Part shown: one piece after another, positions 51,507 to 60,876 of the stretch
How positions within the stretch are numbered: the first letter of the stretch is position 1
Layout of the letters: the number at the start of each line of letters is the position of its first letter
DNA from: Acidobacteriota bacterium
GTDB lineage: Bacteria > Acidobacteriota > Terriglobia > Acidiferrales > UBA7541
NCBI GenBank assembly: GCA_016201285.1
Contig: JACQDE010000084.1
Span: 1-64,000 of the forward strand
DNA length: 64,000 bases
Reading direction: 5' to 3'
The notes under the pieces: generated by a model
Seen by the model: only the letters and a program-made list of their open reading frames with translations
Databases searched by the model: none
What the model was told of the DNA's origin: nothing
Program-made: the position numbers and the translations under genes

Positions 51507-52184
51507 TCAGCGGAGCTGATCGCGATAGAGGGCCATGCCGACGGCGGCGTTCATGCCGAGGCGGGCAAGGGCGCGGACTTCGCGGCGGCTGCGGATGCCG
51601 CCGGCGGCCGTGACGGGCAGGCGCGTGGCGCGGCGCAGCGCGCGGAACCAGGCGAGGTTCGTGCCGCGCATGGTTCCTTCGTTCTCCACGCAGGTGCAGA
51701 GAAACTCCGAGCAGTAGGGCTCGAGTTGCGGCATCACGTCCTCCGGACGCAGCGACAATTGCTGCCGCCAGCCACGTACCACGATGCGTCCCTCTTCCGC
51801 GTCCAACGCCAGAATAATTCTTCGGCGCCCAACACGGCGCGCCAGGCGCCGCAGAAACGCCTGGTGGATTTTCCCGCCACGGAACGCCGCGCTGCCCACG
51901 ATGACCTTCTCCGCGCCCCAGCGCAGAATCCGCTCCGCGCGCGCTACAGTGCGAATCCCGCCGCCGACGTGCACTCTTGATTTCGATTGGCAGCACAACA
52001 AGCGGACCAAACGGGCGTTGCCGCCGCAGCGCAGCGCGGCGTCGAGATCAATCACATGGAGCAAGGGGTATTCGCGAAAGCGGTCGAGCAGGCCAAGTAC
52101 GTCGTTCACGGCCAGCGCCCGCCGGCGGCCGCGCACAAGCTGCACGGCTTGTCCGCCCTGCAGGTCAATGCACGCGATGATCAT
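51507..52184 (-). CDS. hisA: Phosphoribosylformimino-5-aminoimidazole carboxamide ribotide isomerase
   Basis: 225 residues of the (beta/alpha)8 HisA/HisF fold. Catalytic or phosphate-binding segments are ACIDLQGGQAVQLVRG (4-19, Asp6), LHVIDLDAAL, VHVGGGIRTVARAERIL, ILALDAEEGRIVVRGW and PVTAAGGIRSRREVRAL. It isomerises ProFAR to PRFAR. Start ATG 52184 overlaps the hisF stop by four bases. It is the last gene of the operon; somewhat shorter than the usual ~245 residues. Confidence 0.85.
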   Translation of the reverse strand: MIIACIDLQGGQAVQLVRGRRRALAVNDVLGLLDRFREYPLLHVIDLDAALRCGGNARLVRLLCCQSKSRVHVGGGIRTVARAERILRWGAEKVIVGSAAFRGGKIHQAFLRRLARRVGRRRIILALDAEEGRIVVRGWRQQLSLRPEDVMPQLEPYCSEFLCTCVENEGTMRGTNLAWFRALRRATRLPVTAAGGIRSRREVRALARLGMNAAVGMALYRDQLR

Positions 52185-52945
52185 CGGCCCATTCGCACCG
52201 GCACGCCGCGCGCCGCGAGAAATTCCTTCAGCGCAGCGATGGGCTGGAGGTTGTCGTGGAAGATCGATGCGGCCAGGGCGGCATCGGCCGCGCCATCGGC
52301 GAAGACGCGCAGGAAATCCTCCGCAGAATCGGCGCCGCCCGAGGCAATCACGGGCACGCGGACGGCGCGCGAGACGGCGGCAGTGAGTGCGCAGTCGAAT
52401 CCGCTGCGCGTGCCGTCACGGTCCATCGAGGTGAGCAGGATTTCGCCGGCGCCACACGCGACGCCTTCGCGCGCCCATTCGACCGCAGCGCGCCCCGCCG
52501 GCACGCGGCCGCCGCGCACGAACACCTCCCAATGGTCCGCGTTGCGGCTGGCGTCAATCGCCAGCACCACGGCTTGCGCGCCGAACTCGGCGGACAGCTC
52601 GGCAAGAAGCTCTGGGCGCTCGACGGCGGCGGTGTTAACGGCCACTTTGTCTGCGCCGGCGCGCAGAACGGCGCGGGCGTCCTCGAGCGTGCGGATGCCG
52701 CCGCCGGCGGTGAGCGGAATCGCAAGCTGCTCAGCAACGAGACGAATCGTTTGGAGGAAGGTTGGCCGGTTGTCGCGCGCGGCAGCGATATCGAGCACGA
52801 CGAGCTCATCGGCGCCTTCGCGGTTGTAGCGCGCGGCCAGAGCGACGGGGTCGCCGGCGTCGCGGAGGTCGGCAAACTGCACGCCCTTCACGACGCGGGC
52901 GCCATCGGTATCGAGGCACGGAATGATCCGTCGCGCCAGCGTCAT
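52181..52945 (-). CDS. hisF: Imidazole glycerol phosphate synthase, cyclase subunit
   Basis: 254 residues. RIIPCLDTDGARVVKGVQF (5-23) has the catalytic Asp11. The chain continues with ELVVLDIAAA, PLTAGGGIRTLEDAR, VVLAIDASRN (second catalytic Asp) and PVIASGGADSAEDF. With HisH it makes IGP and AICAR from PRFAR. It overlaps hisH by four bases, so the two subunits are translationally coupled. Confidence 0.95.
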   Translation of the reverse strand: MTLARRIIPCLDTDGARVVKGVQFADLRDAGDPVALAARYNREGADELVVLDIAAARDNRPTFLQTIRLVAEQLAIPLTAGGGIRTLEDARAVLRAGADKVAVNTAAVERPELLAELSAEFGAQAVVLAIDASRNADHWEVFVRGGRVPAGRAAVEWAREGVACGAGEILLTSMDRDGTRSGFDCALTAAVSRAVRVPVIASGGADSAEDFLRVFADGAADAALAASIFHDNLQPIAALKEFLAARGVPVRMGR

Positions 52946-53580
52946 CGCGACAGCTCCAAGAAATTCTGGAGCACCTGCGCGCCCGGCTCGCCGGATTTTT
53001 CCGGGTGGAACTGAACGGCATTCGCGGCGCCCTGCTGCAAAACAGCGACGAACGGCGCGCCATGTTCACAGAGAGCAACCGTGCTTCCTCGCAGCGACGA
53101 CCCAGCGGCGCGCCCTTCACTCGCAAGTGCGGCGTAGGAATGCGCGAAATAGAACCACGCGCCGTCCGGCACGCCACGGAGCAATTCGCTCTGGCCCACG
53201 CGGCGCAACTGGTTCCAGCCCATGTGCGGCAGCTTGACCGTTTGTGGCAAGGGTTCGACGCGTCCGGGCAGGATGCCGAGCCCTTCCACGCCGGAGGCTT
53301 CCGCGCTGCACTCAAAGAGCGCGTGCAGGCCGAGACAGATACCGAGGAACGGCACGCCGCGGCCGATGGCCGACCGCAGAGGCGAGATCAGGCCGCCCGC
53401 GCCGAGTGTGCGCATCATGGCGCCGAAATGCCCCACGCCGGGAAGCACGAGGACGCGCGCGGTTTCAACCGCGCGCGGATCGGCAGTGCGCTCCGTCTCC
53501 GCGCCGAGACGCCGCAGCGCCCGTTCGACCGAGGGTAGATTTCCGGCACCGTAGTCCACCAGAGTGATTTTGGCGGGCAT
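52942..53580 (-). CDS. hisH: Imidazole glycerol phosphate synthase, glutaminase subunit
   Basis: 212 residues of class I glutamine amidotransferase. LVDYGAGNLPSVERAL at the start, LVLPGVGHFGAMM, LGICLGLHALFECS (nucleophile Cys about 81) and AVQFHPEKSGEPG (His, Glu) give the full catalytic triad. It provides ammonia to HisF. The hisB stop lies two bases upstream. Confidence 0.93.
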   Translation of the reverse strand: MPAKITLVDYGAGNLPSVERALRRLGAETERTADPRAVETARVLVLPGVGHFGAMMRTLGAGGLISPLRSAIGRGVPFLGICLGLHALFECSAEASGVEGLGILPGRVEPLPQTVKLPHMGWNQLRRVGQSELLRGVPDGAWFYFAHSYAALASEGRAAGSSLRGSTVALCEHGAPFVAVLQQGAANAVQFHPEKSGEPGAQVLQNFLELSR

Positions 53581-53582
53581 CC

Positions 53583-54179
53583 TTACAAAAGCTCCTTTGT
53601 GCTGGGCAGCACGCCGCGCAACTGCGCGTCGCGGGAAACGGCAAACCGGAGCGCGCGGGCGAAGGCTTTGAAGAGCGCCTCCACCTGATGGTGCGAGGAG
53701 CGCCCGCAGAGCAATCGCAGATGCACATTTGCCGCCGCAGCCTGCGCGAACGCGCCGAAGAAATCCTCGAGCAGCTCGGTCTGCAGATCACCCACGCGCC
53801 GCGCCGTGATCCGCCACTTGCCGGCGAAGCAGGCGCGCCCGCCGAAGTCCACCGCGGCGACGGCAAGCGTTTCGTCCATGGGCATCACGAAGTAGCCGGC
53901 GCGCAGGATGCCGCGCTTCGAGCCAAGCGCCCGGCGCACCGCCTGGCCCAGCGTGATGCCAATGTCCTCGACCGTGTGGTGCTGGTCCACGTCGAGGTCG
54001 CCCCGAGCGTCCACTTCCAAATCCAGTGCGCCGTGACGCGCGACCAGCTCGAGCATGTGATCGAGGAAGCGGACGCCGGTGCGGATGCACGCGCGGCCGC
54101 GGCCGTCGAGGTTCAGGCGGACGCGGATGTCGGTCTCCGCTGTCGTGCGGCGAATCAGCGCCTTTCTCATGGCAGCCAC
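53583..54179 (-). CDS. hisB: Imidazoleglycerol-phosphate dehydratase
   Basis: 198 residues, the monofunctional IGPD form. The metal-binding repeats are [13 protein letters not shown] (His, His) and [18 protein letters not shown], with a second pair LVRFAG-type region weaker here and [21 protein letters not shown] near the end. There is no histidinol phosphatase domain; that function may be supplied by the HAD gene just upstream, which overlaps by 13 bases. Confidence 0.92.
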
Positions 54180-54853
54180 CGCTCCACCTCTTCCACGCGG
54201 TGCAGGATGGCGCGGGCGCCGAGGTCGCGCAGCTTCGGACCAAGCACGCGGCGCGCGGCGCTGTCCCGCCGAAGCACGCCGAAAAACGGCACGCCGGCGG
54301 CCCGGGCAGCAAGCGCGTCGTCCACGTTATCGCCGAGATAGAAAGCGGCAGCAGGGTCGCGGCCGTCGAGAATTTTCAGCAGGCCTTCGGGGGCAGGCTT
54401 CGAGCGGCGGACGTCGTCGAGCGTGACGATGGCCTTGAAATGACGGCGGGCATTCGCGCGGTCGAAGGTGTGGCTCAGCTCGCGCCGCGTGCGACCGGTG
54501 AAAATGGCAAGCTCGGCGCGGCGCGCGAGGCGCCGCAGCGTAGCGGGGGAAACCAGCCATTTTTCGAGGGCGACGTTGCCGCAGCCGTTGGCGCCCCAAT
54601 AGAACTTCTGGAACTGCCGCTTCACTTCGGCGTACTCGACGGCCACGCCGAGCGAGCCGATCCAGTCGGTGGAAAGTTTCCAGTCGTCGTTGTAACCGCT
54701 CTGATTTTTCCAGCGCAGGATGTCGGCGGGGCGGAATCGTTTGCCGGTGTAATGATGCACCGTATCCAGGGTGGACTTGTGGAAGGAGCCGCGGACGTCC
54801 ACCAGCACGCCATCCACGTCGAAGATGAGAATTTGAGGATTCGTGTTCAGCAT
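54167..54853 (-). CDS. HAD-superfamily phosphatase inside the his operon (candidate histidinol-phosphatase)
   Basis: 228 residues from ATG 54853. HAD motifs are [15 protein letters not shown] (Asp pair about 11-13), [10 protein letters not shown] (Thr in motif II), SKPAPEGLL (Lys, motif III) and [16 protein letters not shown] (motif IV). It overlaps hisC upstream by seven and hisB downstream by 13 bases, so it is built into the operon. The pathway needs histidinol-phosphate phosphatase and no other candidate is present, so this assignment is likely but inferred from position. Confidence 0.8.
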
Positions 54854-55902
54854 TGGGCTTCCAGGGCGCGCACCAGGCGGCGCATCTGCGGCCGCGTGCC
54901 GATGGTAATGCGAATGAATCCCGCGCGGCCGAAGTCGCGGGTGCGGTCGCGGAGCAGAATGCCCTGCCCCGCCAGCGCGCGCAGGAGGGCCGGAGCGCGG
55001 GCGCCAAAGTCGGCGAGCAGGAAGTTTCCGCCGCTGGGGAAGAAACGCACACCGAGCCGCTCGAGCGCGGCTTCGAGCACGCGCTTGCCGCGGTGCACTT
55101 CCGCAACAGTGCGGCGCAGGTAGGCGGCGTCGCGGATGGCGGCCTCCGCGGCGACGAGTGCGGGCGTGTTCACCGGAAAGGGCGGCTGAGCCTTGCGCAT
55201 CTCGGCGATCAGATGGCGGTTCGCAAAGAGACAGCCGAAGCGCAAGCCGGCGAGGCCCGCGACCTTGGAAAACGTGCGCGTGACAACAAGGTTCGGAGAG
55301 CGGCGAATCCACGGCAGCACGGTGACACCGGAGAACTCCGCGTAGGCTTCGTCCACGACGACGAGCGTGCGCGGGGCGGCATCGAGAATTGTCCGCAATT
55401 CGCGCCGGCCAAGCAGTGTGCCGGTGGGATTATTCGGATTGGCGAGCAGAAAGATGCGCGGCTTGAGCTTGCGGAGAGCGCGCACTACTTTGTCCAACGG
55501 AAAACACATCTGGGCGTCGAGTTGCTCCGTCAGGACGCGCGCGCCGTGGAGCGCGGCGTACAGGCGGTACATGTCAAACGTCGGCTCGACGAGGAAGACG
55601 GAAGCGCGCGGCTCGACGAAGCAGTCGAAGATCAGCTTCAGGCTGTCATCCACGCCGTTGTTGAGGATGGTTTCCGCAGGCGAAACGCCGAAGTACTGCG
55701 CCATGCGGCGGCGCGTGGCTTCATACTCGGGATAGACGGCAATCTGCTCGCGCGAAAGTTTCCTCAAGGCGGCGCGCACAGCGGGAGAGCAGCCCACCGT
55801 GTTTTCATTGAAATCGAGCCGGAGCTTTCCGGCGCGGCCCTGCGGCATCTGATCGCCGCGCATCCGGAGCACTTCCTTGCGCGGCAACACTCGCGGCCTC
55901 AT
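54847..55902 (-). CDS. hisC: Histidinol-phosphate aminotransferase
   Basis: 351 residues, PLP-dependent fold type I. LDFNENTVGCSP near the start, NNGVDDSLKLIFDCF, NPNNPTGTLL (about 166-175), VVDEAYAEFSG (about 198-208) and RTFSKVAGLAGLRFGCLFAN (PLP lysine in the SKV segment) are all standard. Converts imidazole acetol phosphate to histidinol phosphate. It starts within the hisD stop (four-base overlap). Confidence 0.92.
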   Translation of the reverse strand: MRPRVLPRKEVLRMRGDQMPQGRAGKLRLDFNENTVGCSPAVRAALRKLSREQIAVYPEYEATRRRMAQYFGVSPAETILNNGVDDSLKLIFDCFVEPRASVFLVEPTFDMYRLYAALHGARVLTEQLDAQMCFPLDKVVRALRKLKPRIFLLANPNNPTGTLLGRRELRTILDAAPRTLVVVDEAYAEFSGVTVLPWIRRSPNLVVTRTFSKVAGLAGLRFGCLFANRHLIAEMRKAQPPFPVNTPALVAAEAAIRDAAYLRRTVAEVHRGKRVLEAALERLGVRFFPSGGNFLLADFGARAPALLRALAGQGILLRDRTRDFGRAGFIRITIGTRPQMRRLVRALEAQC

Positions 55903-57224
55903 ACGATTCCCTTAGTCATTTTCTCTTTCCTCGTTTCCATCTGCGTTTCGGTGAGTTCGCCCGCGGTTTCCTCTCTTACTGCCACGGCGCGCCTGTGCGC
56001 GGCGAGTCCTTCCGCTTCGGCCAGCGCGCGAGCCACCGGCGCGAGCCGCTTGAGGCCCGCGCGGGAGACCCGTTGCACACTCGAACATTTTACGTAGTCC
56101 GCGACCGATAGCCCACCGCGGGCACGGGCCCAGCCACCCGTTGGCAGGACGTGGTTGGCGCCGCTGGCATAATCACCGAACGGCTGGGCGCTCCAGCGGC
56201 CGAGAAAGGCGCTGCCCGCGGCCTCAACCTGTCGCAGAATGCCAGGCTCGCCGCCGGGCAGACTGAGGTGCTCCGGGGCAAAACGATTGGCGAATTCAAC
56301 CGCGGCGTCAAGGCCGGGCGCAAGGAGGATCCATCCATTCCGCGCAAGAGAACGCGCGGCACAATTGCCCTCCGGCAACACGCGGAGCTGTTGCTTTAAT
56401 TCCTGCAGCACGGCGCGGGCCAACTTGCGCGACGTGGTGATGAACAGCGAGATCGCGTCCGGATCGTGCTCGGCCTGTGCGAGAAGGTCCGCAGCGATGA
56501 ATCGCGGGTTGCCACGAGACGCCAGGATAAACACTTCCGTTGGCCCGGCGAGCATGTCAATGGCGCAATCGGCGCTGACCAACTGCTTCGCCGCAGTGAC
56601 GTAGCGGTTGCCCGGGCCGAAGATTTTGTCCACGCGCGGGATGGTTTCCGTGCCATACGCGAGCGCGGCAACGGCCTGCGTTCCGCCGATCCGCGCAATC
56701 TCACGCACGCCAAGCAAACCAGCCGCCGCGAGCAGAGCCGTATTCGGGCGCGGGCAGGCGACCACGATTCTCCGCACACCGGCCACCTGCGCGGGAATCA
56801 CGGTCATCAGCAGAGTGGAGACGAGCGAGAAGCGGCCGCCGGGAATGTAGCAGCCGATGGTGTCCAACGGACGCACGAACTGCCCGACGCGCACGCCCGG
56901 CTCGACTTCGAGCGTCCACGGCCGCGGCTTCTGGCGTTCGGCAACGCGGCGGATGTTCCGCGCGGCGTGGCGGATGGCGCAGAGCAGTTCGCGGTTGACC
57001 TCGCGCTGCGCGCCGACGATTTCACGGGCGCTAACCCACAGCTCGCGCGCGGAGGGAACGGCAAGGCCGTCGAGCCGGCGGCCCCAGGCGAGCAGGGCAG
57101 TGTCGCCGCGGCGGCGCACGCCGGCGACAATGCGTGTGACAACACGTTCCGTGGCGAGATCGCGGCCGCGGCGCGTCGCCAGGATTTTTTCTGCCGTCGC
57201 TTTGGTGAGCGGAACAATGCGCAT
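55899..57224 (-). CDS. hisD: Histidinol dehydrogenase
   Basis: 441 residues. Conserved pieces are CYIPGGRFSLVSTLLM (about 125-140), IGGTQAVAALAYGTETIPRVDKIFGPGN, DMLAGPTEVFILA, AQAEHDPDAIS (zinc and catalytic region) and FAPEHLSL (catalytic Glu-His). Oxidises histidinol to histidine with two NAD+. The ATG at 57224 is directly at the hisG stop. A Lys-rich tail ends the chain. Confidence 0.95.
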   Translation of the reverse strand: MRIVPLTKATAEKILATRRGRDLATERVVTRIVAGVRRRGDTALLAWGRRLDGLAVPSARELWVSAREIVGAQREVNRELLCAIRHAARNIRRVAERQKPRPWTLEVEPGVRVGQFVRPLDTIGCYIPGGRFSLVSTLLMTVIPAQVAGVRRIVVACPRPNTALLAAAGLLGVREIARIGGTQAVAALAYGTETIPRVDKIFGPGNRYVTAAKQLVSADCAIDMLAGPTEVFILASRGNPRFIAADLLAQAEHDPDAISLFITTSRKLARAVLQELKQQLRVLPEGNCAARSLARNGWILLAPGLDAAVEFANRFAPEHLSLPGGEPGILRQVEAAGSAFLGRWSAQPFGDYASGANHVLPTGGWARARGGLSVADYVKCSSVQRVSRAGLKRLAPVARALAEAEGLAAHRRAVAVREETAGELTETQMETRKEKMTKGIV

Positions 57225-58096
57225 CAGAGCACGATTTTGTTCAACGGGTATTCGACGATCCCCTGCGCCCGGGCCGCTTTCAGTTTGGGGATGATCTGGC
57301 GGACGATTTCCTCGTCCACGATGGTATTCACGGCGACCCAGCCGGGATCACTCAGCGCGGAGATTGTGGGATTCTTCAGCGCGGGCAGGGCGCCGAGAAC
57401 GCCGGGCAGGTCGTCGCATCGCACGTTGAGCATCAGGCCGACCTTGTTGTAGGCAGCGATAGCGCCTTCGAGCAGCAGCGCGAGGTTTGCGATTTTCTCA
57501 CGCTTCCAGAGGTCGCCGACCGCGGCGTGGTTCGCGATGAAGACGGTGGCAGACTCGAGGACGGTGTCCACCACGCGCAGGCGGTGGGCGCGGAGGGAGG
57601 CGCCGGTTTCGGTGACCTCGACGATGGCGTCGGCGAGCTGCGGAACTTTCACTTCCGTCGCACCCCAGGAAAACTCGATACGCGCGGAGACACCGTGCCG
57701 GCGGAGATAGTCTTTGGTGATACGCATGACTTCAGTGGCGATGACTTTGCCTTCGAGGTCTTTCACCGACAGCACCGGTGATTCCTCCGGCACGGCGAGC
57801 ACCCAGCGGACGCGGGAGAGGCGCTGCTTGGCGTAGATGAGCTCGGCAATTTCGGCCACGCCGGCGCCGGTCTCGAGCACCCAGTCGCGGCCGGTGATGC
57901 CGGCGTCGAGCGCGCCGTTCTCGACGTAGCGGGCCATCTCCTGCGCGCGGACCATCGTGCAGGCAATCTCCGGGTCGTCAATCGCGGGGAAATAGCTGCG
58001 CGCGTTCGAGGTGATGCGCCAGCCGGCGCGGGCGAAAAGCTGCAGCGTCGCCTCCTGCAAGCTGCCCTTCGGAATGCCAAGCCGCAACTGGCTCAT
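57224..58096 (-). CDS. hisG: ATP phosphoribosyltransferase (long form)
   Basis: 290 residues, the long form with a C-terminal regulatory domain (about 215-290), as no hisZ is seen. [22 protein letters not shown] starts the chain; [14 protein letters not shown] and the phosphate loop region [12 protein letters not shown] follow. This is the first committed step and is usually feedback-inhibited by histidine. It overlaps hisI by four bases. Confidence 0.93.
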
Positions 58097-58482
58097 GACT
58101 GCTTCCCTTCTCCGTAGATTTGTCCCGGGTCGAACGTTTTTTCGGCGATGACCGTCCCTTCGCCCTCGGCGTTCAGGCGGCGAAAGAAACAGCTCTGGAA
58201 ACCTTCGTGACAGACGCCGGAGCCGAGCGGCTCGACGCGGGCGAGCACGGCATCGGCGTCGCAGTCAATCCGCAACTCGCGCAGGCGCAGGCGGTGGCCG
58301 CTGCGCTCGCCCTTCACCCAAAGCTTGTTGCGCGAGCGGCTGAAGAAGGTGACGTTGCCGGTCGAGAGCGTGGCCTCGAGGGCGGCGGCGTTCATGAAGC
58401 CGAGCATGAGCACTTCGCCGGTGCGGAAGTCCTGCACGACGGCGGGGACGAGCCCGCCGAGCTTTTCAAAATCGAGTTGCAT
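58093..58482 (-). CDS. hisI: Phosphoribosyl-AMP cyclohydrolase
   Basis: 129 residues; [52 protein letters not shown] and the zinc-binding [30 protein letters not shown] cluster are typical. No HisE domain is fused and no hisE gene was found here. It is the first structural gene, 113 bases downstream of the attenuator U-tract. Confidence 0.93.
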
Positions 58483-58530
58483 CGTCCCTCCGAATAATGT
58501 GGAAGATGCCGGCCTCCCGACTTTGCCGGG

Positions 58531-58588
58531 ATAAATTCCGGCCGGCGCTACACGGCGCCAGATGGCGGCGTAAAGCCGCCGCTACGCA
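58531..58588. repeat. Chromosomal palindromic repeats in the his leader
   Basis: CCGGCCGGCGCTACACGGCGCC and GGCGGCGTAAAGCCGCCGCTAC are two units of the dispersed repeat family also present at 2.0, 3.1 and 61.0 kb. They lie between the attenuator and hisI and would be transcribed with the leader. Confidence 0.6.
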
Positions 58589-58595
58589 CGCAAAT

Positions 58596-58632
58596 AAAAA
58601 AAGCCCGCCGGGGCTGGCCGCGCCGGCGGGCT
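58596..58632 (-). terminator. Intrinsic terminator / his attenuator
   Basis: Minus strand: perfect 10-bp stem AGCCCGCCGG / CCGGCGGGCT with an 11-base loop, directly followed by seven T residues. It lies 26 bases after the stop of the histidine-rich leader peptide and before hisI, so it is placed to attenuate the operon. Confidence 0.85.
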
Positions 58633-58658
58633 GAGGAGTGCTTTATGTAGCTAGCGAC

Positions 58659-58724
58659 TCACACGACCGCAGACACGGCGTCACCGTGGTGATGATGGTG
58701 ATGACGATGTGCCCGCAGTTGCAT
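58659..58724 (-). CDS. hisL: his operon leader peptide (seven His codons)
   Basis: A 21-codon minus-strand frame begins ATG CAA CTG and contains His codons 6 and 8-13 (one Arg between), then GDAVSAVV and stop. Seven histidines in eight codons is the hallmark of a his attenuator leader: a ribosome stalled for lack of His-tRNA would alter folding of the downstream terminator. It starts about 12 bases after the promoter -10 box, so its 5' leader is only a few bases and initiation may be leaderless. No Shine-Dalgarno is present. It is too short for automatic gene finding. Confidence 0.85.
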   Translation of the reverse strand: MQLRAHRHHHHHHGDAVSAVV

Positions 58725-58735
58725 AAGAGAGGCGT

Positions 58736-58764
58736 ATCGTAGCGAAAAAAGAGCGGTTGGTCAA
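58736..58764 (-). promoter_or_regulatory. Sigma-70-like his promoter
   Basis: Minus strand TTGACC (58764-58759), a 17-base spacer, TACGAT (58741-58736). The start point would lie just before the leader peptide ATG at 58724. The spacing and boxes are near consensus. Confidence 0.7.
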
Positions 58765-58790
58765 GCGGAAGGGCGATACAGACCCGAGAC

Positions 58791-59888
58791 TCATTCAGGG
58801 CGGGAACCGGTTTCGGTCGTGGGGCCGGCGCCGGCCGCATCCGAAACGGATTCCGCCGCAGGCGGCTCGATAGCCTCAGCCAGGGCAGTGCGTTCCGCGC
58901 TTGCGGGCGCGGAAGCCGCGGCGACGGCGGAGGCTTCCTGGGGTGCGGCGGCAGCCGGGATGGCGGTGAGCGCGGCGAGGCGGGTGGCAAGAGCCGAAGC
59001 GATCAGCTCGACGAGCATCTTCGCGGCTGAGCCGTCGGGGTCGCGGTCGGGATTGTAGGCGGTGACTTCGACGGCCAACAGGTTTTTTTGCCGCACGAAA
59101 ATATCGAGCGCTTCGCGGACGTCGGCGAGGCGCAGGCCGCCAGCGCCGGTGAACTCGCTGGCGGAAAACTCTTCGCCGGAAATCACGTCGGCATCGAGGT
59201 GCAGGACGAAGTTGCGCGTTTCGGAGTGGATGTGCTCGACGGCGCTTTGCGCGGCGCGGGCGACGCCACGGTGGAGAACCTCAGCGGCGGAAAAATGGCG
59301 GATGGGCGAGTTGCGGAGCAGGTCGCGCTCGTAGGTGTCGTATTCCTCGCAACCGAAGAGCGCGACGTCCGGCTCGCGCACCAGCGGCGGCTCGCCCCAG
59401 AAGCGCACCAACTCCGGCGCGCCGCGCCCGACGACATGAGCCAGCACCATGCCGGCGAAACGCCCGGAAGGCGTGCTGGCAGGCACGTTGAGGTCGGGAT
59501 GGCGGTCCATGTAGAGCAGGCAGACGTGGCGGTAGTAGCGGCGGACGGCGGCGACGGTGGCGAGGGCGATGGTGCAGTCGCCGCCGAGGACGAGCGGGAG
59601 CGCGCCAGACTTCGCGGCTTCCTCGACTTTCGGGCGGAGAGCGTTGAGCGCGGCGAGCACGGCGGGGAGGTTGCGAGCGCGGGGGCTTTCGTCGTCCTGC
59701 TGGAAGAGCTGTGTCTCGAAGTCGCCGAGATCGTTGACCATGAAGCCAGCGGCGTTGAGGCGCTCGACAAGACCGGCGGCGCGCAGCGCGACCGGGGCCT
59801 TTTCGTGCCCGGGCGCGTGGGCAGCGGCGCTGGTGGGTGCGCCGATGAGAGCGATGAGATTCGGTTGACGGACGATCTTGACGGCCAA
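58791..59888 (-). CDS. Arginase/agmatinase-superfamily protein (variant metal site)
   Basis: 365 residues from the TTG at 59888, which has GAGGAG seven bases upstream; a longer frame to 59966 overlaps ispH and lacks a site. Ureohydrolase motifs are LGGDCTIAL (first motif, Cys where arginases have His), YMDRHPDLN (second motif) and VLHLDADVISG (third motif), so two of the three metal-binding motifs are intact. The C-terminal ~65 residues are Ala/Pro/Glu-rich and probably disordered. It lies between ispH and the his leader. It may hydrolyse a guanidino or formimino compound; formiminoglutamate would fit a histidine link but is speculation. Confidence 0.75.
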   Translation of the reverse strand: MAVKIVRQPNLIALIGAPTSAAAHAPGHEKAPVALRAAGLVERLNAAGFMVNDLGDFETQLFQQDDESPRARNLPAVLAALNALRPKVEEAAKSGALPLVLGGDCTIALATVAAVRRYYRHVCLLYMDRHPDLNVPASTPSGRFAGMVLAHVVGRGAPELVRFWGEPPLVREPDVALFGCEEYDTYERDLLRNSPIRHFSAAEVLHRGVARAAQSAVEHIHSETRNFVLHLDADVISGEEFSASEFTGAGGLRLADVREALDIFVRQKNLLAVEVTAYNPDRDPDGSAAKMLVELIASALATRLAALTAIPAAAAPQEASAVAAASAPASAERTALAEAIEPPAAESVSDAAGAGPTTETGSRPE

Positions 59889-59925
59889 AGAAGAGCTCCT
59901 CGGTTCGCGAAGCGCCCCGGACAAG

Positions 59926-60876
59926 CTACTTCGAGGCCAGCTCCGGAGGCAGGCTGAACCGGACATCTTCGCGGATCAGCTCAAAGTCGTTCTGTTCCTT
60001 GTAGCCCAGGCCGGCCAGGCGCTGGCTGACCTGCTCGACCAAAACCTCAGGCGCGGAAGCGCCGGCAGTGAGGCCGACACTGGTGACGCCTTCGAGCCAC
60101 TCCTCGCGAATCGCGGCGGCATCTTCAATCAGGCGCGCGGAAACGCCGGCGCGTTCGGCTACCTCGACCAGGCGGTTCGAGTTGGAACTGTTGGACGAGC
60201 CGACGACGAGCACCAACTGAACTTCCTTCGCCAGGTACTCGACCGCTTCCTGGCGGTTCTGCGTGGCGTAGCAGATGTCGTCCGACGCCGGCCCGGCGAT
60301 TTTCGGGAAGCGCTCGCGGAGGCGCGTGACGATTCCCTCGGTGTCGTACATGCTCAGCGTGGTCTGGGTGAGGAAAGCGAGCCGCTCGGGATCAGGCACC
60401 TGGAGACGGTCCACATCCTCGACGCTGTCCACCACGACGGTCTGCTGGGGCGCTTCGCCGGATGTGCCGACGATTTCCTGGTGGTCGCGGTGGCCAATAA
60501 GAACGATGGTGCGGCCCTCGCGGGCAAACTTGAGGGCTTCGAGGTGGACCTTGGTGACGAGCGGGCAGGTGGCGTCGATCACGCGCAGGTTGCGTGCTTT
60601 GGCTTCGTCGCGGACCGAGGGCGGAACGCCGTGAGCGCTGAACACGAGCACCGCGCCGGCGGGCACTTCATCCACCGCTTCGACAAAGATCGCCCCGCGG
60701 CGGCGGAGCTGGTCCACCACATAACGGTTGTGCACGATTTCGTGATGGACATAGACGGGCGAGCTGTAGGCGTCCAGCGCCAGCTCGACGATTTCCACCG
60801 CGCGCACCACGCCGGCGCAAAAACCGCGCGGCCGCGCGCGCACCAATCGCCTCTTGTTATTGCCGGGTTGCGTCAC
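59926..60876 (-). CDS. ispH: 4-hydroxy-3-methylbut-2-enyl diphosphate reductase
   Basis: 316 residues from the GTG at 60876 with GGGGGAAGG upstream. The Fe-S cysteines are in RPRGFCAGVVRAVEI (about 17), DATCPLVTKVH (about 100) and DDICYATQNRQEAV (about 196). HHEIVHN and TSVGLTAGASAPE are also conserved. It performs the last step of the MEP isoprenoid pathway, giving IPP and DMAPP. The arginase-family gene follows 37 bases downstream on the same strand. Confidence 0.95.
   Translation of the reverse strand: MTQPGNNKRRLVRARPRGFCAGVVRAVEIVELALDAYSSPVYVHHEIVHNRYVVDQLRRRGAIFVEAVDEVPAGAVLVFSAHGVPPSVRDEAKARNLRVIDATCPLVTKVHLEALKFAREGRTIVLIGHRDHQEIVGTSGEAPQQTVVVDSVEDVDRLQVPDPERLAFLTQTTLSMYDTEGIVTRLRERFPKIAGPASDDICYATQNRQEAVEYLAKEVQLVLVVGSSNSSNSNRLVEVAERAGVSARLIEDAAAIREEWLEGVTSVGLTAGASAPEVLVEQVSQRLAGLGYKEQNDFELIREDVRFSLPPELASK

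Follow-up and report, generated by a model that had tools for sequence, protein, structure and literature searches.

The closest described counterpart of the element reported here is the his leader of enterobacteria, in which hisL carries seven consecutive His codons and, together with a terminator and an antiterminator, controls the whole his operon (PMC3896937). The enterobacterial leader comprises six segments that fold into the hairpins A:B, C:D and E:F or into the alternatives B:C and D:E. Candidate His leaders have also been described in the Firmicutes, in the B. cereus group, Peptostreptococcaceae and Erysipelotrichales (PMC9413887), and for hisZ/hisS* (PMC2965389). A further group of attenuators is distinguished by leader peptides that are translated from leaderless transcripts: trpL1, leuL and ilvL of Streptomyces lividans (PMC8079986), the ilvB leader of C. 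diphtheriae (PMC5784534), trpL of Sinorhizobium meliloti (PMC7298713) and, as cited in PMC13236596, the polycysteine uORFs of mycobacteria. No His leader was among the leaderless attenuator peptides that we found in the literature, and a search of open-licence PMC papers brought up no description of his attenuation in the Acidobacteriota.

Here we describe such an element in a window of acidobacterial DNA (the whole analysed stretch of 64,000 nucleotides). On the evidence of its sequence, we consider it very probable that a ribosome-mediated transcription attenuator of the Salmonella/E. coli his type controls the operon hisIGDC-HAD-BHFA. The original prediction had named a promoter TTGACC-N17-TACGAT, a 21-codon leader with seven His codons and a perfect 10-bp GC-rich terminator stem with a T7 tract, preceding hisI in that order; each of these is present, all on the minus strand, which the prediction had left unstated. 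As in E. coli and Salmonella, seven His codons, a terminator before the first his gene and a putative antiterminator stand in front of a his operon. Unlike the enterobacterial leader, the element belongs to another phylum, has a predicted near-leaderless start with no Shine-Dalgarno (SD) sequence, and precedes hisI rather than hisG as the first gene; furthermore, its His codons are seven of eight instead of seven in succession.

The operon, which makes the amino acid that the leader would sense, lies entirely on the minus strand. Its first structural gene is hisI (phosphoribosyl-AMP cyclohydrolase, 58093..58482), with an ATG at 58482 and its own SD, GGAGG, followed by hisG in its long form with a C-terminal regulatory domain (57224..58096), hisD (55899..57224), hisC (54847..55902), a HAD-family hydrolase gene (searched segment 54167..54730, the start being approximate), hisB (imidazoleglycerol-phosphate dehydratase, 53583..54179), hisH (glutamine amidotransferase, 52942..53580), hisF (His_biosynth family, assigned by length and sequence, 52181..52945) and hisA or a hisA-like gene of the same family (51507..52184). 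As hisB encodes the dehydratase only, the HAD hydrolase is a candidate for the histidinol-phosphatase step. A spacer of about 110 nt separates the terminator from hisI. Its positions 58500-58590 consist of dispersed repeats, with 32 further partial genome matches to a 601-bp query that all fall at the spacer end, and these repeats fold into strong hairpins (z -2.5); in close relatives outside the genus, hisI often follows immediately 3′ of the terminator. On the upstream side, an arginase-family gene on the same strand (58791-59966; a PF00491 match that stays under the NCBIfam cut-off for arginase, its C-terminus being Ala-rich and of low complexity) ends 26 nt 5′ of the his -35 hexamer.

The leader ORF (58659..58724, with the ATG at 58724 and the stop at 58661-58659) encodes MQLRAHRHHHHHHGDAVSAVV, and its control codons CAT CGT CAT CAC CAT CAT CAC CAC occupy 58686..58709. 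Seven or more His codons among 20 are expected with a probability of about 1.6e-6 at 2/64 per codon, and an in-frame run of six CAY codons is present a single time in the window, 100 shuffles of which gave none. The leader peptides matched no family in Pfam or NCBIfam. Downstream of the His run the peptide reads AVSAVV in the window's genus and PCPRRxx in other genera, where region 2 is read in a different frame. A 2-nt difference in the window's genus shifts the frame after the His run and leaves the RNA of region 2 intact, and so it is the RNA rather than the peptide that is conserved in this part of the leader sequence.

The terminator stem (58632-58602) contains ten perfect pairs, AGCCCGCCGG/CCGGCGGGCU, which are followed by one mismatch and two further pairs, with a folding energy of -25.9 kcal/mol; it begins 26 nt after the leader stop and runs into the T7 tract of the predicted intrinsic terminator (58596..58602). 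One terminator-like site was found in 58000-59500 against 1.6 expected, a count that is not significant on its own, and the terminator gains its weight from being conserved. Four segments suffice to describe the switch. Segment 1, at the leader start (58700..58724), would pair with segment 2 (58661..58685) on ribosome-free RNA, the 1:2 duplex having an energy of -29.2 kcal/mol; across the set of leaders this pairing is weaker than in the window (mean z of the ORF fold -1.2). The core of segment 2, GCCGUGUCUGCGG (58679-58667), is the putative antiterminator strand and sits just 5′ of the leader stop. It is complementary to segment 3 (58617..58632), the 5′ arm of the terminator, AGCCCGCCGGCGCGGC: in the window GCCGUGUC-U-GCGG pairs with CCGC-C-GGCGCGGC with one mismatch, at -23.3 kcal/mol. 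Segment 4 (58602..58616) consists of the loop remainder and the terminator 3′ arm, the 3:4 pairing being the terminator stem itself. In close relatives the stop codon of the leader marks the end of segment 2. Some folds of the window contain a small extra stem, GAGU/GCACUC. The original prediction had called the element a classical his attenuator, a description that holds for its ribosome-mediated anatomy; the switch itself is shorter and four-segment (trp-like), not demonstrably six-segment, and has a segment 2 that extends to the leader stop, unlike the enterobacterial his switch.

When a ribosome is modelled with His codons 1-5 in its A site, the pre-terminator RNA folds into the antiterminator at about -29 to -33 kcal/mol; with the ribosome modelled at the leader stop, only the terminator is left to form. 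At equilibrium, a fold containing the terminator (about -40 kcal/mol) is predicted to be favoured, also when a ribosome is stalled, over the antiterminator hairpin, for which about -30 kcal/mol was obtained with the terminator still incomplete; the outcome of the switch must therefore depend on which structure folds first, as is assumed for known attenuators too.

Regions 2 and 3 hardly vary within the window's family, which makes co-variation uninformative there; the co-variation of the two strands was therefore assessed in the wider set of 79 distinct leaders, all of which are followed by a hairpin and a T-rich stretch. Summed over these leaders, the native pairing of region 2 with the terminator 5′ arm amounts to -1814.6 kcal/mol, compared with -1508.4 (sd 25.4) on average for permuted sets, and none of 20,000 permutations matched it, in a test that does not correct for relatedness. 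For the 27 leaders whose alignment needs no gaps, pairing in register is seen in 249 of 270 cells, as opposed to at most 152 when the strands are slid by 1-3, and two pairs of 2:3 show C-G/U-A exchanges. Larger changes are likewise matched: L137, from a contig titled Armatimonadetes, combines a terminator arm of very different sequence, GCCGAGCCTGCCG, with a region 2, CGGCAGTTCGGC, that matches that arm, and in L038 and L042 also the terminator sequence differs and segment 2 is changed to match. L035, L077 and a few others show little or no 2:3 complementarity. The window's own region 2 paired no better than foreign regions 2 (z 0.2), for which reason the case for 2:3 rests on the whole set, and no better than shuffled copies of itself when the arm was cut at the terminator loop, a cut that omits the loop GG that pairs with region 2 and whose inclusion raised the energies. 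At the level of sequence, 1:2 and 2:3 complementarity together with 2:3 co-variation is the anatomy of ribosome-mediated attenuation; computationally, complementarity, co-variation and the pre-terminator fold point to a putative antiterminator strand and a terminator that exclude each other.

Related genomes, to which the original prediction had looked for confirmation, contain the same element. Upstream DNA was taken from 61 genomes, from the same genus to the same class, that were searched with HisG, and leaders were sought as His-rich short ORFs without the window leader as a query. All 35 same-class loci in which hisG is full-length and sufficient sequence lies upstream carry a leader, 33 strong (at least 4 His in 9 codons) and two weak (L039 and L040, with 3 His and a terminator following); Terriglobus roseus, Granulicella, Terracidiphilus and Bryobacterales are all among its carriers. 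Named relatives place the group in the class Terriglobia of the Acidobacteriota. Among more distant loci from other acidobacterial families, a His-rich leader with a terminator was found in 19 of 40. Throughout, the element stands just 5′ of hisI or hisG, a position that it occupies in roughly a hundred acidobacterial loci. Genomes that matched HisG weakly, with hisG in its short form, mostly have no leader adjacent to hisG, and the loci from Planctomycetes, Verrucomicrobia and Bacteroidetes returned by the same search have no equivalent leader. In the source genome, a simple scan for Trp, Leu, Val or Ile runs upstream of trpE, ilvB and leuA revealed no similar leader. A His leader of the same kind, again with promoter and terminator, also occurs in L088, L103 and L137, whose MAG contigs bear the titles Ferrithrix, Acidimicrobium and Armatimonadetes; these contigs are mis-binned, or else the attenuator has travelled with its his operon.

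We propose the following model for this attenuator. Transcription would start at the leader AUG or 0-5 nt 5′ of it, and a ribosome would load onto this leaderless or near-leaderless mRNA. When charged His-tRNA is scarce, the ribosome would stall at the His run and cover segment 1; segment 2 (GCCGUGUC-GCGG), left uncovered, could then pair with the 5′ arm of the terminator once that arm is made, no terminator would form and the operon would be transcribed. When His-tRNA is plentiful, the ribosome would proceed to the stop codon at the end of segment 2, cover that segment and allow the 3:4 terminator to form. Should the leader go untranslated, 1:2 would form and 3:4 would again terminate transcription.

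The part of this model that concerns initiation depends upon the promoter. Its -35 hexamer TTGACC (58759..58764) and its -10 hexamer TACGAT (58736..58741) were located by a promoter scan with a spacer of 17, TTGAC being kept at this place in most relatives, and form the sole sigma-70-like match within 58000-59500 (0.1 expected). Downstream of TACGAT lies ACGCCTCTCTT and then the leader ATG, 11 nt from the -10. Transcription usually starts about 7 nt 3′ of the -10, so the predicted 5′ UTR of the leader, whose length is taken from the promoter position, is approximately 0-5 nt, and the spacing is kept in relatives. The leaderless translation suggested in the original prediction gains support from this conserved spacing and from the rarity of SD sequences, with the transcript start itself a predicted one; since the AUG lies 6-12 nt from the -10 and SD sequences are rare, the leader is probably translated from a leaderless, or nearly leaderless, start.

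An alternative that retains the attenuator is that its leader is translated in the ordinary manner from a longer transcript, begun at a farther-upstream promoter or reading through from the arginase-family gene. We found no terminator between that gene, which is on the same strand, and the his promoter, and the first of two tandem attenuators in another acidobacterial family, f26, has GAGG 8 nt 5′ of its ATG and a longer promoter spacing, both of which would suit such a transcript. This explanation is nevertheless unlikely in light of the comparative data. The distance from a TAnnnT -10 to the leader ATG is 6-12 nt in 85% of the 79 distinct leaders, drawn from many families, versus 19% for shuffled upstream sequences; of 24 leaders outside the class, 18 have a distance of 8-10 nt. 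In several of the outliers among the 79, the usual spacing is restored by a start codon that lies in frame a few codons 5′. With the best promoter of each leader scored as a -35, 16-19 nt and a -10, the mean score is 11.4 for the 79 leaders and 7.8 for shuffled upstream sequences. An SD-like 4-mer precedes only 4 of the 79 leaders, the other 75 having none, as opposed to 44 of 73 hisI starts. Furthermore, the pattern TTGAC-N-TAnnnT-N7..12-ATG occurs 32 times in the source genome and three times for the reversed control, and many of the 32 ATGs open genes that we recognise by their N-terminus (pyrE, hemE, argR, selB, purD and serA). Given this roughly ten-fold excess and the housekeeping genes that follow, near-leaderless genes seem, from sequence, to be common in this genome. 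Indeed, 9.7-19.4% of genes have been predicted to be leaderless in three Acidobacteria, with a TA-like signal about 10 bp 5′ of the start as the mark (PMC3160421). One further near-leaderless ORF of the source genome (L199, G000:C38:44849-44893) has eight codons, MGGYTLPA, and is directly followed by a hairpin that looks like a strong terminator, with its T run; it may be a further attenuator or a small RNA.

A quite improbable reading is that transcription always stops at the terminator and that the product, a small RNA or a His-rich (metal-binding) short peptide, functions in its own right, the operon having another promoter. The terminator is strong, and the trp attenuator RNA and peptide of S. 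meliloti do have roles in trans (PMC7298713). However, the peptide 3′ of the His run is unconserved and differs in frame between genera where the RNA is kept, region 2 and the terminator arm co-vary, and the element is found directly 5′ of hisI or hisG throughout; a role in trans may exist in addition to attenuation. Control by a T-box, a riboswitch or a HisR-type repressor in place of ribosome-mediated attenuation is less probable still. Such mechanisms do govern his genes in Firmicutes and Actinobacteria, according to PMC3896937 and PMC9413887, but they need no in-frame His codons in a conserved ORF, and no T-box or riboswitch was found with Rfam in 58000-59200 at E <= 5, or at the gathering score in 18 relatives, the T-box covariance model included. 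Finally, although one terminator-like site is expected in a stretch of this size, the chance that a His-rich ORF and a terminator merely happen to precede hisI is vanishingly small, being refuted by the comparative data, in which so rare a His run turns up in this position in roughly a hundred loci of the phylum.

The near-leaderless attenuator of the window is a single one. In f26, from another part of the Acidobacteriota, two His-rich leader ORFs, each with its own terminator, lie in series upstream of hisG in each of the four genomes examined (L166, L167, L226 and L227, from G087, G098, G119 and G074). In L167, MVTATLSRLHHHHHPIIGPGTGAHAV is followed by a terminator and then by ...FHAHHHHHFHLPSG, whose region 2, CCGGGUGA, matches the second terminator arm, UCACCCGG. 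To judge by their sequences, the f26 pairs are apparently tandem attenuators for one amino acid. They resemble the leader of Salmonella mgtCBR, a Mg2+ transport and virulence operon (PMC3641672), in having two short ORFs in series, and differ from it in that both f26 copies carry His codons. We lean towards a broader reading in which the near-leaderless his attenuator is the ancestral his control of the Acidobacteriota, a ribosome that initiates without an SD step to set its arrival would keep up with RNA polymerase closely enough to decide attenuation, and the module was doubled before hisG in one family.

The leaderless attenuators of Actinobacteria and S. meliloti likewise encode a control-codon peptide on a transcript that starts at the AUG, upstream of the controlled gene; they serve other amino acids in other phyla, and their 5′ ends are mapped, where those described here are predicted. 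Like the acidobacterial leaders, the Firmicutes candidates combine a His-codon leader with a terminator and antiterminator outside the Proteobacteria and are missed by RF00514, according to the accessible part of PMC9413887; there they have three to five consecutive His codons in 17 genomes of separate lineages, as against up to seven and a spread across the phylum here, and that part of the paper contains no report of a leaderless start. The Rfam His_leader model (RF00514) scores 22.7 bits in the window, below its gathering cut-off of 49, the scan of this region giving only sub-threshold His_leader and Trp_leader matches, and none of 18 relatives reached the His_leader cut-off. Because leaderless attenuator peptides are known elsewhere, for trp, leu, ilv and cys, what appears to be new is the phylum-wide presence of a his attenuator in the Acidobacteriota, as an addition to a known type. 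Specialist interest should be greatest in the near-leaderless start and in the two His attenuators in series of f26.

The his leader gives a clear function to a sequence element of a large soil phylum that has been little studied, and adds this phylum to the known range of his operons with peptide-leader attenuation. The signature TTGAC-N17-TAnnnT-N7..12-ATG-His run-terminator could be used to annotate his operons that Rfam now misses. Finally, throughout the phylum no more than a few bases separate the predicted transcript start from the leader AUG, which makes these leaders a natural system for studying the timing of leaderless initiation relative to transcription.
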